Part shown: in pieces, positions 1,046 through 52,477 of the stretch | Layout of the letters: every line of letters starts with the position of its first letter | Position numbering within the stretch: the stretch's first letter is position 1 | Assembly: GCF_003574315.2 (NCBI RefSeq) | Contig: NZ_AP025739.1 | Location: 7,378,001-7,442,000, forward strand | Length of the DNA stretch: 64,000 nt | Direction of reading: 5' to 3' | Source of the DNA: Capsulimonas corticalis | GTDB taxonomy: Bacteria > Armatimonadota > Armatimonadia > Armatimonadales > Capsulimonadaceae | The notes under the pieces: model-generated | Told to the model about the DNA's origin: nothing | Database searches by the model: none | Seen by the model: only the letters and a program-made list of their open reading frames with translations | Program-made: the position numbers and the translations under genes

Positions 1046-1196
1046 GCAAACCCACCCCGGCCCTGCGGCCGACCCCTCCCGCCGGCGGGAAGGGTGATTT
1101 CAGAGCGTGTTATCGCAGGCGGCTTTCGTAAGAGGCAATCCTACAAACCCTTCCCGTCGGCGGGAGGGGTCGGCCGAAGGCCGGGGGTGGGTTTGC
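1046..1196 (+). repeat. 151-bp palindromic element, copy 1
   Basis: About 51-bp arms face each other (1046-1096 and 1146-1196) around a 49-bp non-palindromic core that holds TTTCAGAGCGTGTTATCGC. Each arm carries its own small hairpin (CGGCC stem). The element sits between the convergent genes 483-878 and 1228-2166. Copies 2 and 3 are exactly the same length. No ORF in it looks real. Confidence 0.88.
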
Positions 1197-13219: not shown

Positions 13220-13572
13220 GAGTAACCCTCCGACAGGGCAAATCGCCCGTGGCAAATCGCCCATGGCCCCCCCGGCGCTTCGCGGCGCCTCCTTGGCAAA
13301 CCCACCCCCGGCCTTCGGCCGACCCCTCCCGCCGACGGGAAGGGTTTGTAAGATGGCCTCTTACGAAAAGTGTTTGCGTTAACACGCTCTGAAATAACCC
13401 TTCCCGTCGGCGGGAGGGGTCGGCCGAAGGCCGGGGGTGGGTTTGCCAGGGAGGGGTGGCGCGAAGGCCGGGGGTAGGTAGGACTTGGAGCGTGCGAAGC
13501 GCCGGGGTGGGTTTGCCACGGGCGATTTGCCGCGGGTGGCGCGAAGCGTCGGAGTAGGATGGCGCCGGGCGA
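13220..13572. other. Gene-free stretch with nested palindrome arms
   Basis: This 353-bp gap between convergent genes holds element copy 2 (13296-13446) and outer pieces of its arms. Left pieces near 13240-13270 (AAATCGCCCGTGGC) pair with right pieces near 13514-13530 (GCCACGGGCGATTT). Further degraded arm copies fill 13447-13560. No gene is visible. Confidence 0.75.
13296..13446 (-). repeat. 151-bp palindromic element, copy 2 (inverted)
   Basis: Arms 13296-13346 and 13396-13446 match each other almost base for base, including the small hairpin CGGCC-TTC-GGCCG. The 49-bp core is in the opposite orientation to copies 1 and 3 and differs from them at several bases (TTAACGCAAACACTTTTCG on the minus strand). 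It lies between convergent genes. Confidence 0.9.
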
Positions 13573-19439: not shown

Positions 19440-21187
19440 CTATGGAGCGGGCGTCACCGTGATACGCACCGCGCCCGAGTAGTTCGAATATCCCGTGTTG
19501 ACCACACGAGTGAAGTACGAACCTGCCGCCGACGAGACCGCGCTGGGAAGAACCACCGTCAGCTGCGTCGAAGAGACGATCGTCGGCGTCACCGTGTACG
19601 TGTCATTGACCGTCACCACCGAGCTCGCCTCGAAGTTCGAGCCCGTGTAAGTCAGCGTCACCGTCGAGCCAGACACGATCGAGCTGGGAGAAACGCTCGT
19701 CAGCACCGGGCGAGACGCCACCGACAGAACGGAGGCGCCGGAAGGACCGCCTTCCGAGGTGATGTTCACCACACGCACCGAAACATCGCCCGGAGAAGCA
19801 AGCGCCGACGGAGGAACGGGAACCACGATCCGAGTCGACGTCACCGACGAGGGAGCCACATTCGCCCCCCCGTTGAAAGAGACCGCCGAATTGTTCGTGA
19901 AGCCCGTCCCGTAAACGTACAGCGAGAGGCTCGAAAGACCCGCAGGAACGCGTGTCGGGTTCAGGCTCGTGATCGTCGGAGCCGGAACCGTCGCCGAAAC
20001 CACGCTGAAGCGCATCGTTCCCGATGTGTTGGCGTAGCCCGTGTTGACCACACGCGCAAAGTACGAACCCACCGTCGAAGAAACCGCGCTGGGAAGAACC
20101 AACGTCAGCTTCGTCGAGGAGACCACCGTCGGCGTCACCGTGTACGTATCATTGACCGTCACCACCGAGCTTGGCTCGAAGTTGGCGCCCGTCAAGGTCA
20201 GCGTCACCGTCGCCGCGGCGGGAACGGCGGTCGGCGCGATGCTGGTGAGCACCGGACGGGCCGCGATCGAGAGTGTCGACGGGGCCGAGGAGCCCCCATC
20301 CGCTACGGAGTTGACCACCCGCACCGCCACATCCCCGACATTAGCCAGGACCGAGGCGGGAACCGAGACGATGATCCGATTGGACAGCATCGAGCTCGGC
20401 GTTACCGGAGCGCCGCCGTTGAACGTCACCTGCGAACTGCTCGTGAAGTTCGAGCCGTACACGTAGAGCGTCTGGCTGGCAAGGCCCGCCGGGATGCGGC
20501 TGGGCGAGAGGCTCGTGATGGCGGGAACCGGGGTGACCACCGTGTAGCGCGCGGGGTTCGAGTAGTTGTTCGTCCCGACATTGACCAGGCGCAGGAAGTA
20601 CGCGCCCACGGTCCCGGTCAAAGAGGAGGGAACCAGCGCCGTCGCCTGGGTTGCGGAGATCACGTTGGCGGGCACGGAGGCGGTGTCGTTGAAGGTGACG
20701 CTCGCTCCGGGGTAGAAGTTGGTTCCCGTGAGCGTGATCAGGGTGTTGGACGAGTCCTTCTTGAGCACCGAGGGCGAGAGCAGGGTCAGGGTGGGATGGC
20801 CGACCACGGTCAGCGTCAGCGCCGAAGTCGATCCGCCCGCTCCCGGCGCGTTGACCACGACGACCTGGGCGGTTCCGGGAGCCTGGGCGATGGGCAGAGG
20901 AACGGGTACGACGATCTGCGTGGGCGTGACGGAAGTGGGAGAGACCGGATCGCCGCTGCTGAAGGTGACCTTGGAGTTGTCCACGAAGTTGTGGCCGTTG
21001 ATGGTGATCGAGAACCCGGATGCGGAGACGTTGGCGATCGCGGGGCTCAGGCTGGCGATGGTCGGGGAGAGAACCTGGAAGTTCAGCGCGCTCGACACGT
21101 CACCAGCTCCGGGGTTCACAACTTTGACGCTGTAGGTTCCCAGTGTGGAAAGTACATTTGCGGGAACGGCCACCGTCATCTGCGTGG
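19440..21187. repeat. Near-identical tract, copy in TIG gene A
   Basis: It aligns with 23551-25298 at a constant offset of 4111 bp. The first ~440 bp carry about a dozen differences, then I saw none from 19879 to 21029, and very few up to the break at 21187, after which the genes diverge sharply. Confidence 0.92.
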
Positions 21188-23336
21188 GCGTGACGGAGGT
21201 AGGAACGGCGGCGCTGGCTCCGTTGAAGGTGACGGTCGCGTCTGGATTGAAGCCGGTTCCTTTGAGCGTCAGTGCGAGCGTGGAGGCTCCGACACCCGTC
21301 GAGTTTGGCGTGAGCGATGTGAGCGTGGGAACGCCGGCGACATCGAGCGTGGAGGCAGGCGAGGTTCCACCCGGTGTGGCGGTATTGACGACGGTGACCG
21401 CGACAGATCCCGCCTGGGCCAGGAGCGCATCAGGCACGGGCACACTGATCGTGGTGGGCGTGACGGAGGTCGGAGTCACGGGGGTTCCGCCGTTGAAAGC
21501 GACCTTGGAGTTGCTTTCGAAGCTGGTTCCGGTGATCGAGAGCGTCAGACCGGTTGTCCCCGGCGCGACCGAGTTAGGACTGAGCGTGATGATCGAGGGC
21601 GTCGCAACGATAAAGGAGCTGGGGCTGCTGTCGGAAGCCTGGTTAGTATCATGCACCCGAACAGCGTAGATCCCAGTCGCGCTGACCACGGAAGCTGGAA
21701 CGGCGACCGTGATCTGTGTTGTGGTGACGGAAATCGGCGTGACGGGCGCTCCTCCGTTAAAGGCAACGGTCGCTGTAGGCAGGAAGTAATCACCGGTGAG
21801 CGTCAATACGGCGCTGGGAGTGCCAATCGCTACCGTGGACGGCGAGACAGTCGTGAGCAGTGGGTACGGCGGGAAGGGATAAGCCTTCTTATTGGAAACG
21901 CCGTTCGCGCTCACATAAAGACTGTACTTTCCGGCGGGTAAACTCGACGGCGCTTGGAACTTGCAGGTTTCCGGCGCGCTTCCCGTCCAAATCGCTCGCG
22001 TACTGAAATCGTAGCTGCGGCAGAAATAGATGTTGTTCGACGCATCCTTCAGATAAACGATCGGATAGTTCGTCGAGTTCATAAAGTCGTCGCCGTAACT
22101 CGACCCAAACGAACGGCCAGTGATCTGCGTACCGGTCAGCGTGTAGGAGCCGTCGTTGTTGCGGGTTACCGAGCTAACGGTGGGGCGCCAGGAGTCATCC
22201 GGCCCCGTTCCTGCCTGCGGCGTATACACGGCGAGGTCGCCGCCGGACGTGTACAAAATCTGCCCCGTCGGAAGCTCCAGCAAACGTGTTCCGAACGCCA
22301 CCCCCGATTTTCCTGCCGGAGGATCGGGAAGAAGGGTGAAGGTATTCGCCGTCGCATCGTATTCGAAGCATGTCCCGGGGCCGAAGATGTCGTTACTGGG
22401 TGTCTTTGAAGCGACCAGCAGCACCTTGCCATTGGTTTCAATCGCGGCGGGAGTATCGCCGGCGGTATAGCCAGCCGGATATGGCGCCGATGGGCTCCAC
22501 GATCCGATGCCGTTCAATGTGGTGGGCGGATTGAACAAAGCGGTGGGACCGTTGTCGCTGGTGCACCAGACCTGACCATTCTGCAAATAGATGAAAGGCC
22601 CCTCTTCTCCGCCAAACTGGGGCGTAGACATCGTGATGGGGCAGACGGCAGTATCGATCCACTGTCCTGTTGAAGGGATATAGCGCTCGCCGGGATTGTG
22701 AAGACAATCGAAGACGGTGCCGTCCGCCAGTGTCTGCCAGGTTTCCTCGTCTCCTGAGCCCGCGTTCAACGTGCCGGTCTGGCTCCAGGTATTGGTCGCG
22801 ACATCGTAAATCTGTGTATTGCCGTTCGCGCGAGTGCTGACGAGCGGTCGCCCATCGTTGAGCAGTGCTGCGCCGGTGTCGCCAATATCGCCGAAAAGGC
22901 CATTGGGCTCCTGTGTCCATGTATTCGCGATCGGATCGTAGATCTGAACGTGATTATTTCTCTCGGCCTGACCATCCGGGAACGAGACGTATTCACCGCC
23001 CGCCATCCAGAAGCGGCCGTCGCTCAAAATAAACGCGGGGTAGTAGAGCGCGCTCCAGGGGCTGTGGGCGAGAGCCGTCCACGTTCCCTTGGTGTAGTCG
23101 CCTTTGGCGTCGGGCGTATATCGAAACCAGTCCGAGCCGGGAGAGCCATCGACAAGGACGCTGCCGTCCGTCAGCAGATAAAAACCGGTGATGCCTTCGT
23201 TCGGAAGCGGCGGACAAGCCGCCCAGGTTCCGATCGCATGGGCGGACGGCGCGCTCGCCAAGCCGGCAAGGCATGTGACGCCGATGGCGCATAGCGCGCG
23301 AGTCAGCAGAGAAAGAGAGTGCTTCGTTCTTTTCAT
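19440..23336 (-). CDS. Giant secreted kelch-like/TIG-repeat protein A
   Basis: 1298 residues from the ATG at 23336 (AAGGA six bases upstream). A signal peptide (about 1-34, ending AHA) is followed by a kelch/galactose-oxidase-like beta-propeller (about 35-390, e.g. NNHVQIYDPIANTWTQEPNG), an Ig-like E-set domain (about 395-500) and nine IPT/TIG repeats of about 88 residues to the end, each opening like PTLTSLTPNS and containing ...TGTNF. The protein is likely at the cell surface or secreted and may bind sugars or adhere. No C-terminal anchor is visible. The galactose-oxidase copper ligands could not be assigned. It is a near twin of the next gene. Confidence 0.88.
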   Translation of the reverse strand: MKRTKHSLSLLTRALCAIGVTCLAGLASAPSAHAIGTWAACPPLPNEGITGFYLLTDGSVLVDGSPGSDWFRYTPDAKGDYTKGTWTALAHSPWSALYYPAFILSDGRFWMAGGEYVSFPDGQAERNNHVQIYDPIANTWTQEPNGLFGDIGDTGAALLNDGRPLVSTRANGNTQIYDVATNTWSQTGTLNAGSGDEETWQTLADGTVFDCLHNPGERYIPSTGQWIDTAVCPITMSTPQFGGEEGPFIYLQNGQVWCTSDNGPTALFNPPTTLNGIGSWSPSAPYPAGYTAGDTPAAIETNGKVLLVASKTPSNDIFGPGTCFEYDATANTFTLLPDPPAGKSGVAFGTRLLELPTGQILYTSGGDLAVYTPQAGTGPDDSWRPTVSSVTRNNDGSYTLTGTQITGRSFGSSYGDDFMNSTNYPIVYLKDASNNIYFCRSYDFSTRAIWTGSAPETCKFQAPSSLPAGKYSLYVSANGVSNKKAYPFPPYPLLTTVSPSTVAIGTPSAVLTLTGDYFLPTATVAFNGGAPVTPISVTTTQITVAVPASVVSATGIYAVRVHDTNQASDSSPSSFIVATPSIITLSPNSVAPGTTGLTLSITGTSFESNSKVAFNGGTPVTPTSVTPTTISVPVPDALLAQAGSVAVTVVNTATPGGTSPASTLDVAGVPTLTSLTPNSTGVGASTLALTLKGTGFNPDATVTFNGASAAVPTSVTPTQMTVAVPANVLSTLGTYSVKVVNPGAGDVSSALNFQVLSPTIASLSPAIANVSASGFSITINGHNFVDNSKVTFSSGDPVSPTSVTPTQIVVPVPLPIAQAPGTAQVVVVNAPGAGGSTSALTLTVVGHPTLTLLSPSVLKKDSSNTLITLTGTNFYPGASVTFNDTASVPANVISATQATALVPSSLTGTVGAYFLRLVNVGTNNYSNPARYTVVTPVPAITSLSPSRIPAGLASQTLYVYGSNFTSSSQVTFNGGAPVTPSSMLSNRIIVSVPASVLANVGDVAVRVVNSVADGGSSAPSTLSIAARPVLTSIAPTAVPAAATVTLTLTGANFEPSSVVTVNDTYTVTPTVVSSTKLTLVLPSAVSSTVGSYFARVVNTGYANTSGTMRFSVVSATVPAPTITSLNPTRVPAGLSSLSLYVYGTGFTNNSAVSFNGGANVAPSSVTSTRIVVPVPPSALASPGDVSVRVVNITSEGGPSGASVLSVASRPVLTSVSPSSIVSGSTVTLTYTGSNFEASSVVTVNDTYTVTPTIVSSTQLTVVLPSAVSSAAGSYFTRVVNTGYSNYSGAVRITVTPAP

Positions 23337-23480
23337 CGCGAGTCCTTCCGATGGCGCAAATTTGAATGCTCCATCATAAACAAGAACTCGCAAATTTATA
23401 TCAATATGAAAATCATTTATTTACAGATTCGTTTTGGTATTTATTGTCAGTGATTTTGGTCTTTTTGTTAACGTAAAAAA

Positions 23481-23517
23481 GCGGCGTCCATGCTTCTTTG
23501 TGAAGCATGGACGCCGC
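23481..23517 (-). terminator. Terminator of TIG gene B
   Basis: A perfect 15-bp stem (23481-23495 with 23503-23517); on the minus strand it is followed by TTTTTT. It ends the gene at 23551-27456. Confidence 0.93.
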
Positions 23518-23550
23518 CAATCCGCAAGTGGCTGAAGATGTGACAGGACC

Positions 23551-25298
23551 TTACGGAGCAGGCGTCACCGTGATACGCACCGCGCCGGAGTAGTTCGAGT
23601 ACCCTGTGTTGACCACACGAGTAAAGTACGAACCCGCCGCCGACGAGACCGCGCTGGGAAGAACCACCGTCAGCTGCGTCGAAGAGATGATCGTCGGCGT
23701 CACCGTGTACGTATCGTTCACCGTCACCACCGAGCTCGCCTCGAAGTTCGAGCCCGTGTAAGTCAGCGTCACCGTCGAGCCAGACACGATCGAGCTGGGA
23801 GAAACGCTCGTCAGCACCGGGCGAGACGCCACCGACAGAACGGAGGCGCCGGAAGGACCGCCTTCCGAGGTGATGTTCACCACACGCACCGAAACGTCGC
23901 CCGCAGAAGCAAGCGCCGACGGAGGAACGGGAACCACGATCCGAGTCGACGTCACCGACGAGGGAGCCACATTCGCCCCCCCGTTGAATGAGACCGCCGA
24001 ATTGTTCGTGAAGCCCGTCCCGTAAACGTACAGCGAGAGGCTCGAAAGACCCGCAGGAACGCGTGTCGGGTTCAGGCTCGTGATCGTCGGAGCCGGAACC
24101 GTCGCCGAAACCACGCTGAAGCGCATCGTTCCCGATGTGTTGGCGTAGCCCGTGTTGACCACACGCGCAAAGTACGAACCCACCGTCGAAGAAACCGCGC
24201 TGGGAAGAACCAACGTCAGCTTCGTCGAGGAGACCACCGTCGGCGTCACCGTGTACGTATCATTGACCGTCACCACCGAGCTTGGCTCGAAGTTGGCGCC
24301 CGTCAAGGTCAGCGTCACCGTCGCCGCGGCGGGAACGGCGGTCGGCGCGATGCTGGTGAGCACCGGACGGGCCGCGATCGAGAGTGTCGACGGGGCCGAG
24401 GAGCCCCCATCCGCTACGGAGTTGACCACCCGCACCGCCACATCCCCGACATTAGCCAGGACCGAGGCGGGAACCGAGACGATGATCCGATTGGACAGCA
24501 TCGAGCTCGGCGTTACCGGAGCGCCGCCGTTGAACGTCACCTGCGAACTGCTCGTGAAGTTCGAGCCGTACACGTAGAGCGTCTGGCTGGCAAGGCCCGC
24601 CGGGATGCGGCTGGGCGAGAGGCTCGTGATGGCGGGAACCGGGGTGACCACCGTGTAGCGCGCGGGGTTCGAGTAGTTGTTCGTCCCGACATTGACCAGG
24701 CGCAGGAAGTACGCGCCCACGGTCCCGGTCAAAGAGGAGGGAACCAGCGCCGTCGCCTGGGTTGCGGAGATCACGTTGGCGGGCACGGAGGCGGTGTCGT
24801 TGAAGGTGACGCTCGCTCCGGGGTAGAAGTTGGTTCCCGTGAGCGTGATCAGGGTGTTGGACGAGTCCTTCTTGAGCACCGAGGGCGAGAGCAGGGTCAG
24901 GGTGGGATGGCCGACCACGGTCAGCGTCAGCGCCGAAGTCGATCCGCCCGCTCCCGGCGCGTTGACCACGACGACCTGGGCGGTTCCGGGAGCCTGGGCG
25001 ATGGGCAGAGGAACGGGTACGACGATCTGCGTGGGCGTGACGGAAGTGGGAGAGACCGGATCGCCGCTGCTGAAGGTGACCTTGGAGTTGTCCACGAAGT
25101 TGTGGCCGTTGATGGTGATCGAGAACCCGGATGCGGAGACATTGGCGATCGCGGGGCTCAGGCTGGCGATGGTCGGGGAGAGAACCTGGAAGTTCAGCGC
25201 GCTCGACACGTCACCGGCTCCGGGGTTCACAACTTTGACGCTGTAGGTTCCCAGTGTGGAAAGTACATTTGCGGGAACGGCCACCGTCATCTGCGTGG
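23551..25298. repeat. Near-identical tract, copy in TIG gene B
   Basis: Partner of 19440-21187. Direct repeats of this length 2.4 kb apart could recombine and delete one gene or form hybrids. Confidence 0.92.
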
Positions 25299-27456
25299 TC
25301 GTTGCCGACGTGGGAAAATAGTTGGCGTCATTGAAGGATACTAATGCGGACGGGCTGAAGCCGGATCCCTTCAGAGTAAGTGTGACACTGGAGGCTCCAA
25401 CTCCTGTCGAGCTCGGTGTAATCGACGTGAGCGTGGGGACGCCGGCGACATAGAGCATTCCAGGAGGCGATGTTCCGCCTGGCGTGGCGGTATTGACGAC
25501 GGTGACCGCAACGGTTGCAGCCTGCGTCAGGAGCGCGTCAGGCACGGAGACGCTGATCGTGGTGGGCGTGACAGAGGTCGGAGTCACAGGGGTTCCGCCG
25601 TTGAAGGCCACCTTGGAATTGCTTTCGAAGCTGGTTCCAGCAATCGTGATCGACAATCCCGTGGTGCCGGGCGCAACCACATTCGGGACAATGCCGGTAA
25701 TTGAGGGCGTTGCGACGATAAAGGAGCTGGGGCTGCTGTCGGAAGCCTGGTTAGTGTCGTGCACCCGAACGGCGTAAATCCCGGTGGTGTTGATAACCGA
25801 GGAAGGAACGGCGACCGTGATCTGCGTTGTAGTGACGGAAATCGGCGTGACCGGCGCTCCGCCATTAAACGTGACTGTGGCCGTGGGCAGGAAGAAATCA
25901 CCGGTGAGCGTCAATACGGCGCTGGGAGTTCCAATCGCCACCGTGGACGGCGAGACAGTCGTGAGCAGCGGCGCGGGCGGGAAGGGATAAGCCTTCTTGG
26001 TCGAAACGCCGTTGACGCTCAAATACAGATCGTATTTTCCGGCCGGCAATCCATTAGGAACCTGGAATTTACAGGTTTCCGGGGTGCTTCCTGTCCAGAT
26101 GGCGCGTGTGCTGAAATCGCTGGTGCGGCAGAAGTAGACGTTGTTCGATGCATCCTTGAGGTAGACGATCGGGAAGTTCGTCGAGTTAAAGAAGTCGTCT
26201 CCGTAATTGGCCCCAAATGACCGTCCGGTGATCTGAGTACCGGTCAACGTGTAGGAGCCGTCGTTGTTGCGGGTTACCGAGCTAACGGTGGGGCGCCAGG
26301 AGTCGTCCGGGCCTGTTCCGGCTTCCGGAGTATACACAGCAAGGTCGCCGCCGGAGGTGTACAAAATCTGTCCGGTCGGCAGTTCCAGCAGGCGCGTCGT
26401 AAACGCCTGTCCGGCTCGGCCAGCCGGCGGATTGGGAATAATCGTATAGGCATTCGTCGCAGGGTCGTATTCGTAATAATTCCCTGGTCCGAATATGTCC
26501 GTGCCCTGAACGTCGGAACCGACCAGCAGCACCTTGCCATTGGTTTCAATCGCGGCGGGAGTATCACCGGCGGTATCTCCCGCCGGGTATGTCGCCGCCT
26601 GGCTCCAGGAGCCGAGGCCATTCATGGTCGAGGGCGGATTGAAAAGAGCGGTGGGACCGTTGTCGCTGGCGCACCAGAGCTGCCCATTCTGCAGATACGT
26701 GATCGGCCCCTGTTCGGCGCCGAAGGCATTCGTGGAAATGGCGATCGGGCAATCCGCGGAAGGGATCCATTGCCCGGTTGCGGGGTTATAACGCTCGGCC
26801 GGATTCGAGCGGCAGTCGAAGACAGTGCCGTCGGCCAGCGTCTGCCAGGTCGACTCGTCGCCGTTGCCGCGAAGACTGTTGCCCGTCTGCGTCCAAGTAT
26901 TGGTGTCCAGATTATAAATTTGGTTGAGCACATCGAAGCGATAGCTGACCATTGGACGGCCGTCGTTCAGCAGAACAGCCGCAGTGTCGCCGATATCGCC
27001 GAAAAGGCCATTGGGCTCTTGTGTCCACGTATTTGCAATCGGATCGAAGATCTGAACGTGGTTATTTCTCTCTGCCTGACCGTCAGGAAAAGTAACATAC
27101 TCGCCGCCCGCCATCCAGAAACGGCCGTCGTTCAGCGTGAAAGACACAAAATAAAGCGCTCCCCAAGGGCTGTCGGCGAGATTCGACCATGTCCCCTTGG
27201 TGTAGTCGCCTTTGGCGTCGGGAGTGTATTTGTACCAATGTAGTCCGCCGACACCAGAGCCATAACCGCTGGCGAGAACTGTTCCGTCGGTTAGCAAAAA
27301 AATGCCCGAAAGGTCCTCACCTTGATGCGCCGGACAGGACTGCCAGGTCCCGATGGCATGGGCTTGAGGCGACACCGCCACTCCGGCGAGGCATGTGACG
27401 CCGATGGCGCATAGCGCGCGGGCCGCCAGTGAAAAATTGCGTTTGTTCCGTATCAT
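23551..27456 (-). CDS. Giant secreted kelch-like/TIG-repeat protein B
   Basis: 1301 residues from the ATG at 27456 (AAGGA upstream). The domain order is as in protein A: signal peptide (ending AHA), beta-propeller, E-set domain, nine TIG repeats. The last ~580 residues differ from protein A at only two positions that I can see (Pro/Ala and Val/Ile), while the propeller halves differ much more. A tandem duplication with later gene conversion of the TIG half explains this. Each copy has its own start region and terminator, so they are probably transcribed separately. Confidence 0.88.
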   Translation of the reverse strand: MIRNKRNFSLAARALCAIGVTCLAGVAVSPQAHAIGTWQSCPAHQGEDLSGIFLLTDGTVLASGYGSGVGGLHWYKYTPDAKGDYTKGTWSNLADSPWGALYFVSFTLNDGRFWMAGGEYVTFPDGQAERNNHVQIFDPIANTWTQEPNGLFGDIGDTAAVLLNDGRPMVSYRFDVLNQIYNLDTNTWTQTGNSLRGNGDESTWQTLADGTVFDCRSNPAERYNPATGQWIPSADCPIAISTNAFGAEQGPITYLQNGQLWCASDNGPTALFNPPSTMNGLGSWSQAATYPAGDTAGDTPAAIETNGKVLLVGSDVQGTDIFGPGNYYEYDPATNAYTIIPNPPAGRAGQAFTTRLLELPTGQILYTSGGDLAVYTPEAGTGPDDSWRPTVSSVTRNNDGSYTLTGTQITGRSFGANYGDDFFNSTNFPIVYLKDASNNVYFCRTSDFSTRAIWTGSTPETCKFQVPNGLPAGKYDLYLSVNGVSTKKAYPFPPAPLLTTVSPSTVAIGTPSAVLTLTGDFFLPTATVTFNGGAPVTPISVTTTQITVAVPSSVINTTGIYAVRVHDTNQASDSSPSSFIVATPSITGIVPNVVAPGTTGLSITIAGTSFESNSKVAFNGGTPVTPTSVTPTTISVSVPDALLTQAATVAVTVVNTATPGGTSPPGMLYVAGVPTLTSITPSSTGVGASSVTLTLKGSGFSPSALVSFNDANYFPTSATTTQMTVAVPANVLSTLGTYSVKVVNPGAGDVSSALNFQVLSPTIASLSPAIANVSASGFSITINGHNFVDNSKVTFSSGDPVSPTSVTPTQIVVPVPLPIAQAPGTAQVVVVNAPGAGGSTSALTLTVVGHPTLTLLSPSVLKKDSSNTLITLTGTNFYPGASVTFNDTASVPANVISATQATALVPSSLTGTVGAYFLRLVNVGTNNYSNPARYTVVTPVPAITSLSPSRIPAGLASQTLYVYGSNFTSSSQVTFNGGAPVTPSSMLSNRIIVSVPASVLANVGDVAVRVVNSVADGGSSAPSTLSIAARPVLTSIAPTAVPAAATVTLTLTGANFEPSSVVTVNDTYTVTPTVVSSTKLTLVLPSAVSSTVGSYFARVVNTGYANTSGTMRFSVVSATVPAPTITSLNPTRVPAGLSSLSLYVYGTGFTNNSAVSFNGGANVAPSSVTSTRIVVPVPPSALASAGDVSVRVVNITSEGGPSGASVLSVASRPVLTSVSPSSIVSGSTVTLTYTGSNFEASSVVTVNDTYTVTPTIISSTQLTVVLPSAVSSAAGSYFTRVVNTGYSNYSGAVRITVTPAP

Positions 27457-27637
27457 CGCGTGTCCTTCCAAAAATTTAACATTGGCCCATCTACCATAGT
27501 CGAGTTGCATCAAATATCAATCAAAGGATCCTGAAATTATCATATGCAAATTTTGGAATCATTATATTGTGCTCATTAATTATTACACAGGTTTTTGCAG
27601 CGACGACATTTACCAGTCAACAACTTGACGAAGAAAA

Positions 27638-51464: not shown

Positions 51465-51615
51465 GCAAACCCACCCCCGCGCTTCGCGCGCCCCCTCCCG
51501 CCGACGGGAAGGGTTATTTCAGAGCGTGTTATCGCAGGCGACTTTCGTCAGAGGCAATCTTACAACCCCTTCCCGTCGGCGGGAGGGGGCGCGCGAAGCG
51601 CGGGGGTGGGTTTGC
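51465..51615 (+). repeat. 151-bp palindromic element, copy 3
   Basis: Arms 51465-51515 and 51565-51615 around a core nearly equal to that of copy 1. In both arms the small hairpin is CGCGC-TTC-GCGCG instead of CGGCC-TTC-GGCCG, so the two arms changed together. A further arm piece follows at 51621-51648. The right side lies inside the end of the AraC gene. Confidence 0.9.
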
Positions 51616-52477
51616 AAAGGGTGGCGCGAAGCGCCGGGGTGGGTTTGCTCTGCCGAAACTCCCTCGGCCCCTGCCCCATCTCCGCCTTGAACCGCTTGGA
51701 AAAGTAAAACTCGTCGCCGTAGCCGAGGGCGTCGGCGATTTGGGCGCTGGTCATTTGGGTGAATTTGAGCATTTCACAGGCGGCTTCGATGCGGCGGCGG
51801 GCGCGGTAGCGGGCAGGGGAGACGCCAAGGGATTGGGTGAAGCGTTTGCGGAAGAGTTCGTAGCCGACGCCGACTTTGCGGGCGACTTCGGCGGGGTCGA
51901 GATCTTGGGAGAGGTCGGCTTCTAGGAGAAGCTGGGCGGCTTGGAGCCAGTCGTCTGGGTGTGAAGTGTCGGTGGGCGTGGAGAGGGCGAGGAGCATTTC
52001 GGTGAGGAGGGCGTGGAGGCGGGCGACTTGAAGGGCGTCGTCGTCGCGGGAGCCGGGGCGTAGACGGGCGGCGAAGGCGGTGAATTTGGCGAGCCAGCGG
52101 TCGTCGGGTTGGCGCGGGGCGATGGGACGGGAGGGGTCGATGAGGCCGATTTGGTGGAGCATGGCGAATGCGGGGCCGTCAAAGACGAAGTAGAGTTCGT
52201 CCCAATGTGTGCCCGGATTGGGGCCATAGCTGTGCGGGAAGCTGGGGAAGACAAAAATGGCGTCGCCGGCGACGAGAGGGATCCGCTTCTGGTGAATATC
52301 CCGGTACACGCCCTCGCCCCGTGTGATAAAGACGAGGGCGTATTGATCGTAGATACGCAGGGGATAGGCGGGAACCACGCCCTCGCCGTTCTGGATTCGA
52401 GCGGCGAGGGTGAGGCGCCCCAGCGGAGTCATCTCGGAAGAGACAAATATCGGCGTAGTGTGGTTATGCGGCGCCAT
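51560..52477 (-). CDS. AraC-family regulator with repeat-derived C-terminus
   Basis: 305 residues. A cupin-like sensor (about 1-130) is followed by the AraC DNA-binding domain (about 190-275): ARKVGVGYELFRKRFTQSLG and ADALGYGDEFYFSKRFKAEM. The family normally ends soon after GPREFRQ. Here about 29 more residues follow, with KPTPALRA twice and PPPADGKGL; these are translated from arms of the palindromic element, which also supplies the stop codon. It is divergent from the PhyH-type gene and probably controls it. Confidence 0.9.
   Translation of the reverse strand: MAPHNHTTPIFVSSEMTPLGRLTLAARIQNGEGVVPAYPLRIYDQYALVFITRGEGVYRDIHQKRIPLVAGDAIFVFPSFPHSYGPNPGTHWDELYFVFDGPAFAMLHQIGLIDPSRPIAPRQPDDRWLAKFTAFAARLRPGSRDDDALQVARLHALLTEMLLALSTPTDTSHPDDWLQAAQLLLEADLSQDLDPAEVARKVGVGYELFRKRFTQSLGVSPARYRARRRIEAACEMLKFTQMTSAQIADALGYGDEFYFSKRFKAEMGQGPREFRQSKPTPALRATLCKPTPALRAPPPADGKGL

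Follow-up and report, generated by a model that had tools for sequence, protein, structure and literature searches.

Repeats of the BoxC/PIT type, recognised in many bacteria for decades, follow the consensus CCCTCNCCCN3-6GGGNGAGGGN3GGGNGAGGG, in which a C-block is followed by a G-block and by a mirrored G-block (Holder et al., 2015; PMC4666352). They are intergenic and multicopy, often stand in inverted pairs, and have no known mover. The Escherichia coli motif forms a stable single-strand triplex in vitro; in living E. coli no triplex footprint was detected, and neither transposase- nor integrase-like activities were reported near the motifs, the origin of which was called unclear (Holder et al., 2015; PMC4666352). 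REPtrons and TIRtrons (RAYT or TIRYT genes with REPs or inverted repeats) have in common with the element described here that inverted palindromes enclose the gene of a small DNA-cutting enzyme and that gene-less copies exist; however, they use a Y1 tyrosine transposase, whereas the enzyme here is a Vsr-like PD-(D/E)XK nuclease and the GTAG tag is missing (PMC3733652). CGTC REPs, which are reported to have no dedicated transposase, are short palindromes like the window element, although stem and tag differ (PMC3733652).

The window, a stretch of 64,000 nucleotides of the Capsulimonas corticalis chromosome (NZ_AP025739.1, positions 7,378,001 to 7,442,000), holds three copies of a palindromic element (Table 1), and at least 82 related copies were found in this single 7.645-Mb Capsulimonas (Armatimonadota) chromosome. 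With 151 bp, 50-nt terminal inverted repeats and this copy number, the non-coding element has the size and structure of a MITE (70-300 bp, terminal inverted repeats, non-coding, multicopy). The arms were complementary at 50/50 positions in copy 2 (CGGCC-TTC-GGCCG in both), at 49/50 in copy 3 (CGCGC-TTC-GCGCG in both) and at 46/50 in copy 1, where the left small hairpin H1 reads CGGCC-CTGC-GGCCG and the right one has a TTC loop. Hence the CGGCC stem of copies 1 and 2, and its replacement by CGCGC/GCGCG in both arms of copy 3, described in the initial annotation, were confirmed; the loop change ascribed to copy 1 is present with the stem unchanged, but in the left arm only. The predicted fold (-81.4 kcal/mol, DNA parameters) lies far beyond chance (shuffled mean -30.5, sd 3.5), and Rfam 15 gave no match at gathering score within the window.

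Table 1. Palindromic element copies in the window, with the anatomy of copy 3 and the overlapping reading frame
Feature	Position in window	Strand	Remark
Copy 1	1046-1196	+	palindromic element
Copy 2	13296-13446	-	palindromic element
Copy 3	51465-51615	+	whole 151-bp palindromic element
Copy 3, left arm	51465-51514	+	C-rich strand on +
Copy 3, left H1	51478-51490	+	small hairpin, CGCGC-TTC-GCGCG
Copy 3, core	51515-51565	+	51 nt, asymmetric
Copy 3, right arm	51566-51615	+	G-rich strand on +
Triplex block 1	51567-51574	+	CCCTTCCC, C-rich strand of hairpin H2; architecture compared with PMC4666352
Triplex block 2	51581-51588	+	GGGAGGGG, purine strand of hairpin H2
Right H1	51590-51602	+	CGCGC-GAA-GCGCG, linker joining blocks 2 and 3
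Triplex block 3	51603-51610	+	GGGGTGGG, block 2 mirrored, T opposite A
Outer half-arm	51616-51648	+	abuts copy 3, partial second layer
AraC-family regulator ORF	51560-52477	-	last ~30 codons inside copy 3 and outer layer; tail QSKPTPALRATLCKPTPALRAPPPADGKGL

Two further observations concern reading frames of the window. In the AraC-family ORF (305 residues), domain matches stop at residue 276, and KPTPALRA occurs twice in the last ~30 residues, which derive from the outer layer and right arm (51560-51648). At 19440-27513, two minus-strand ORFs of 1317 and 1320 aa with many internal repeats form a tandem duplication (~4.1 kb) of a very long repetitive gene.

Over 162 arms, the three triplex blocks were the best conserved parts, and the H1 stems and the H2 loop varied. 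The order of C-block, G-block and mirror G-block is the BoxC/PIT intrastrand-triplex layout (PMC4666352), and the blocks follow the triplex-motif pattern (Y, R, third R mirroring block 2; G over GC, A or T over AT), as GGGAGGG/GGGTGGG. The loop of 1-6 nt expected by ITxF was not found between blocks 2 and 3, where the second loop is the 14-nt hairpin H1; because of this hairpin, the window arms are filed, as judged from their sequence, as a putative variant of the BoxC/PIT/TM motif and not as strict members. They differ from that motif (PMC4666352) in having a hairpin with covarying cassettes as second loop, in standing as pairs on both sides of a 51-nt core, in their nested layers and in the DUF559 gene carried by one unit. 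Since H1 is a linker to the third strand, its sequence is free to change as long as it stays a hairpin. Beyond this genome, purine-strand hairpins beside DUF559 genes of many phyla had a mirror-matched third strand (score of at least 7) in 35% of cases, vs 12% for shuffled partners (maximum 14.5%), with GGAGAGGGG/GGGGTGAGG, GGGAAGGGGG/GGGGGTTAGG and GAAGGAAGG/GGAAGGTAG as examples. This match is a covariation of another kind than Watson-Crick pairing. A G-quadruplex may form in G-rich arms, but it was rejected as the conserved fold and the triplex reading is preferred, because the last of these pairs (L162) is mirror-matched without G-runs.

The initial annotation proposed that the small stems and the long-range pairing of the arms are all kept, and saw in this double compensation a sign that selection or copying maintains the fold. 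Covariation of H1 across all retrievable genomic copies bears out the first part: among 35 distinct arms, 3/5 pairs changed on both sides, and double-changed cells numbered 37, against 14.8 after shuffling (0/500) and 0-5 with partners slid. In the cassette statistics (67 copies, 134 arms), H1 was fully paired in 125/134 arms, and four cassettes were common, namely GGCGC (37 arms), CGGCC (29), GGCCC (29) and CGCGC (15). The two arms of one copy matched far less strictly. The same cassette was present in both arms of 38/67 copies, in excess of the 12.3 expected and of the 26 reached at most in 5000 shuffles, but the remaining 29/67 (43%) had different cassettes, and 53/58 such arms were locally perfect. 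Private variants were common to both arms in L050 and L067, despite weakening the small hairpin, and in L080, where the variant is located in a loop. Strict compensation from arm to arm is therefore not the rule, and long-range arm pairing, broken in 43% of copies, was rejected as the selected feature; what is constrained looks to be the fold of each single arm. H1 covariation, mismatched copies that are yet locally paired and shared private variants together indicate two forces: the hairpin of every single arm is under constraint, and sequence is copied from arm to arm and from copy to copy. The earlier proposal is thus supported in part.

The genome of a sister species of the same genus (G001; a draft, 69% complete), which matches Capsulimonas sp. 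RYN_270 at its DUF559 locus (L099 and L231 are identical when aligned), allowed orthologous sites to be compared. At 6/13 of its sites the same intergenic gap is filled in both species, with flanks 75-91% identical; at these shared sites both arms differ together in a species-specific manner, and the core is inverted in 2/6. This turnover of whole palindromes, together with the shared variants of L050 and L067, points to copying from arm to arm and from copy to copy as the reason why both arms change together, and not to base-by-base compensation. The element is absent from one species at L180/L239, L184/L235, L017/L250 and L020/L254, one species retains just a half-arm at L187/L241, and another palindrome is found in one species at L197/L236, L011/L247 and L189/L238. 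Among these, L238 (G000:7235475-7235725) is a large nested palindrome (CCCCGGTTATGAAACCCGGG...CCCGGGTTTCATAACCGGGG) that differs in type from the 151-bp element of the sister species at this site. At L180/L239 the element is flanked by CATCTCC and GGAGATG, the two strands of a plain hairpin stem in the empty species; this single clear orthologous site suggests that the element may have been inserted into a hairpin apex, a mode of insertion that would fit the concentric outer layers. Flank complementarity was higher within than between copies, and 23-36% of copies lay above the 95th percentile for mismatched pairs. Orthologous empty sites, the flanks of which have diverged, showed no target-site duplication. 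As an orthologous insertion test copy 3 itself was uninformative, since the sister species matches at 94% identity on the PPDK side and has a different neighbouring gene.

Other combinations of the same parts were noticed in the genome. At L084 (G000:3099400-3100500) and L086 (G000:3437900-3439000) the same arms surround not the usual core but a perfect terminator-like hairpin (AAAAAGCCCCATCGCC...GGCGATGGGGCTTTT), and at L054 (G000:1658493-1659493) and L088 (G000:6702500-6703600) another repeat that both share, ATGTGATACAAGCTTAGCCGCARCGGGAAGGG, takes the place of the left arm.

At L083 (G000:1487669-1488317) the same arms enclose 603 bp with a gene for a 137-aa DUF559 protein, which scored 119.3 bits against PF04480 (curated cut-off 20.6). 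DUF559 is a family of Vsr-like PD-(D/E)XK nucleases. Compared as a candidate autonomous partner of the MITE-like copies, L083 has in common with them both arms and the right inner end (27/35 identical to the right part of the 51-nt core; score 19.5, shuffle maximum 13.5); the match of the left inner end was no better than chance. The other two strong DUF559 genes of the genome, L096 (G000:2525819-2526130) and L094 (G000:797564-797872), are also enclosed by long inverted repeats, but these have no sequence relationship to the window element. VsrA of Caulobacter (PMC12907096), YcjD of E. coli and PDB 3HRL (match at E=8e-22) belong to the same Pfam family as the L083 protein and are discussed as mismatch-repair-like or uncharacterised; the searched passages of the DUF559 papers found, VsrA included, do not mention palindromic repeats or report a link to them. 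No paper on such a link was found in the open-access literature, and priority elsewhere is possible.

The association of DUF559 genes with inverted flanks extends beyond Capsulimonas. In a protein-similarity sample of 80 relatives with 66 usable loci, a strong inverted flank was present at 36% of loci vs 1/399 shifted windows, and in an independent HMM-drawn sample of Armatimonadota at 43% of 28 loci vs 0/115, which for the two samples together is 36-43% of loci vs 1/514 shifted windows; with the scoring used here, ~60% of DUF559 loci had no strong inverted flank. In the protein-similarity sample, C-rich hairpin motifs reached a density of 2-3 per kb in the 200 nt next to the DUF559 gene vs ~0.1 per kb elsewhere. 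In the comparison of gene types, in which automatic reading-frame choice lowers the DUF559 inverted-flank count to 7/25, HNH genes of the same phylum had such flanks at 0/29 loci; Y1 transposase genes of the phylum were flanked by inverted repeats at 12/23, as in TIRtrons, and the C-rich hairpin motif was found at 0/23 Y1 loci vs 13/25 DUF559 loci. Named cases include Pseudanabaena and Picosynechococcus (Cyanobacteria), Azospirillum and Sphingomonas (Alphaproteobacteria), and Deinococcus. DUF559 palindromic units stand between operon genes (suf, hpa and paa operons) in Sphingomonas (L263, suf) and Deinococcus (L264, L269, L265); in two Deinococcus species the unit occupies different junctions of one and the same hpa operon, and where one species has the unit, the genes of the other overlap by 4 bp. 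The Azospirillum plasmids were rejected as a case of insertion polymorphism, since the seven plasmids that span most of the query have the element at the same place.

Among Armatimonadota, at least four copies of one triplex pattern occurred in 27/68 genomes with a strong DUF559 gene vs 9/83 without (Fisher 4e-5, not corrected for phylogeny). A strict present need for DUF559 was rejected, given motif-rich Armatimonadota genomes without a detected DUF559 gene, such as G059, which has 129 copies of one triplex pattern, unlike its same-genus relatives in lacking a detected gene. In E. coli K-12, ycjD (DUF559) adjoins BoxC: TMECO no. 9 (1,351,204-1,351,239; PMC4666352) is within the ycjD-fabI gap. 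The E. coli repeat is present in 4905/5426 genomes, at a median of 16 places per genome.

Several other explanations were weighed against these data. Neutral quasipalindrome correction by template switching, with recombination between copies, could by itself have homogenised the arms, fold and nuclease being irrelevant to spread; the private variants carried by both arms, the cores inverted between species and the arms changed whole and in concert speak in its favour. Nevertheless, we consider it unlikely, since it leaves unexplained the covariation within an arm in copies with unlike arms, the cross-phylum third-strand mirror match and the DUF559 association. The main idea of the initial annotation, that a structured RNA or DNA with a long arm-arm stem is itself selected, with compensatory changes between arms, draws on the excess of matching cassettes and on the high stability of the long hairpin. 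We regard it as very improbable, because 29/67 copies break arm pairing with local hairpins kept, outer layers are often unpaired and Rfam yields no match.

Retention of the elements for the sake of expression, as intergenic terminators or at mRNA 3' ends, with DUF559 as a hitchhiker in safe sites, would agree with the several copies directly after a stop codon and with the terminator-like cores of L084 and L086; it is equally doubtful, in that the arms lack T-runs, BoxC/PIT motifs are without terminator activity according to earlier work as quoted in PMC4666352, and HNH genes of the same phylum are without such flanks. The least probable of the explanations weighed here is a REP/RAYT system of IS200/IS605 type, in which a Y1 tyrosine transposase would move the modules as REPs. 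It is supported by the short palindromes, by their arrays in head-to-head order, by the presence of several Y1 genes in the genome and by the inverted repeats beside phylum Y1 genes, but no Y1 gene of the genome had an element module nearer than 1.5 kb, and the C-rich hairpin motif is confined to DUF559 loci in the Y1 comparison above. A RAYT link was rejected on this ground as well, as a Y1_Tnp gene flanked by the repeat, which would mark it, was found neither among the genome's Y1 genes nor among the 23 Y1 loci of the phylum.

On balance, copy 3 is probably a non-autonomous, MITE-like palindrome with triplex-forming arms homogenised by copying, and a member of a DUF559-linked family, and we infer that the nuclease acts on this family and moves it. 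The two 50-nt arms that enclose its 51-nt core in inverted orientation would each be a BoxC/PIT-kind intrastrand-triplex repeat, in a variant with H1 as second loop; in the single-stranded arm, H2 would form the duplex and H1 would return the third G-strand, so that any compact hairpin may serve as H1 and arms may exchange H1 cassettes as units. Arm matching would stem mostly from copying inside one copy or from one copy to another, by template switching or gene conversion. Autonomous units would carry the nuclease gene between inverted arms, with the 151-bp copies as gene-less derivatives, an arrangement best read as REPtron-like (foldable inverted arms around a nuclease gene, plus gene-less derivatives). 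The association with DUF559 and the conservation of the fold, both read from sequence, suggest that the nuclease recognises the folded arms, most likely cutting them during replication or repair; the palindrome would thereby be copied to new intergenic sites, sometimes an existing hairpin apex, giving rise to concentric layers, and copying via replication or repair would also homogenise the arms.

More tentatively, and with somewhat more doubt than confidence, DUF559 nucleases from Armatimonadota to E. coli may be the mobility enzymes of cross-phylum selfish, triplex-forming BoxC-like palindromes, recognising fold over sequence. If this is true, fold recognition would explain how repeats and arm cassettes change while the fold stays, and DUF559 would be the first candidate mover for the widespread BoxC-like repeats. 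The element itself presents concerted sequence change of a repeat with its fold unchanged. Moreover, no role has been settled for DUF559/YcjD, a widespread family of nucleases, and its link to BoxC would offer, within a laboratory strain, one testable hypothesis for both.
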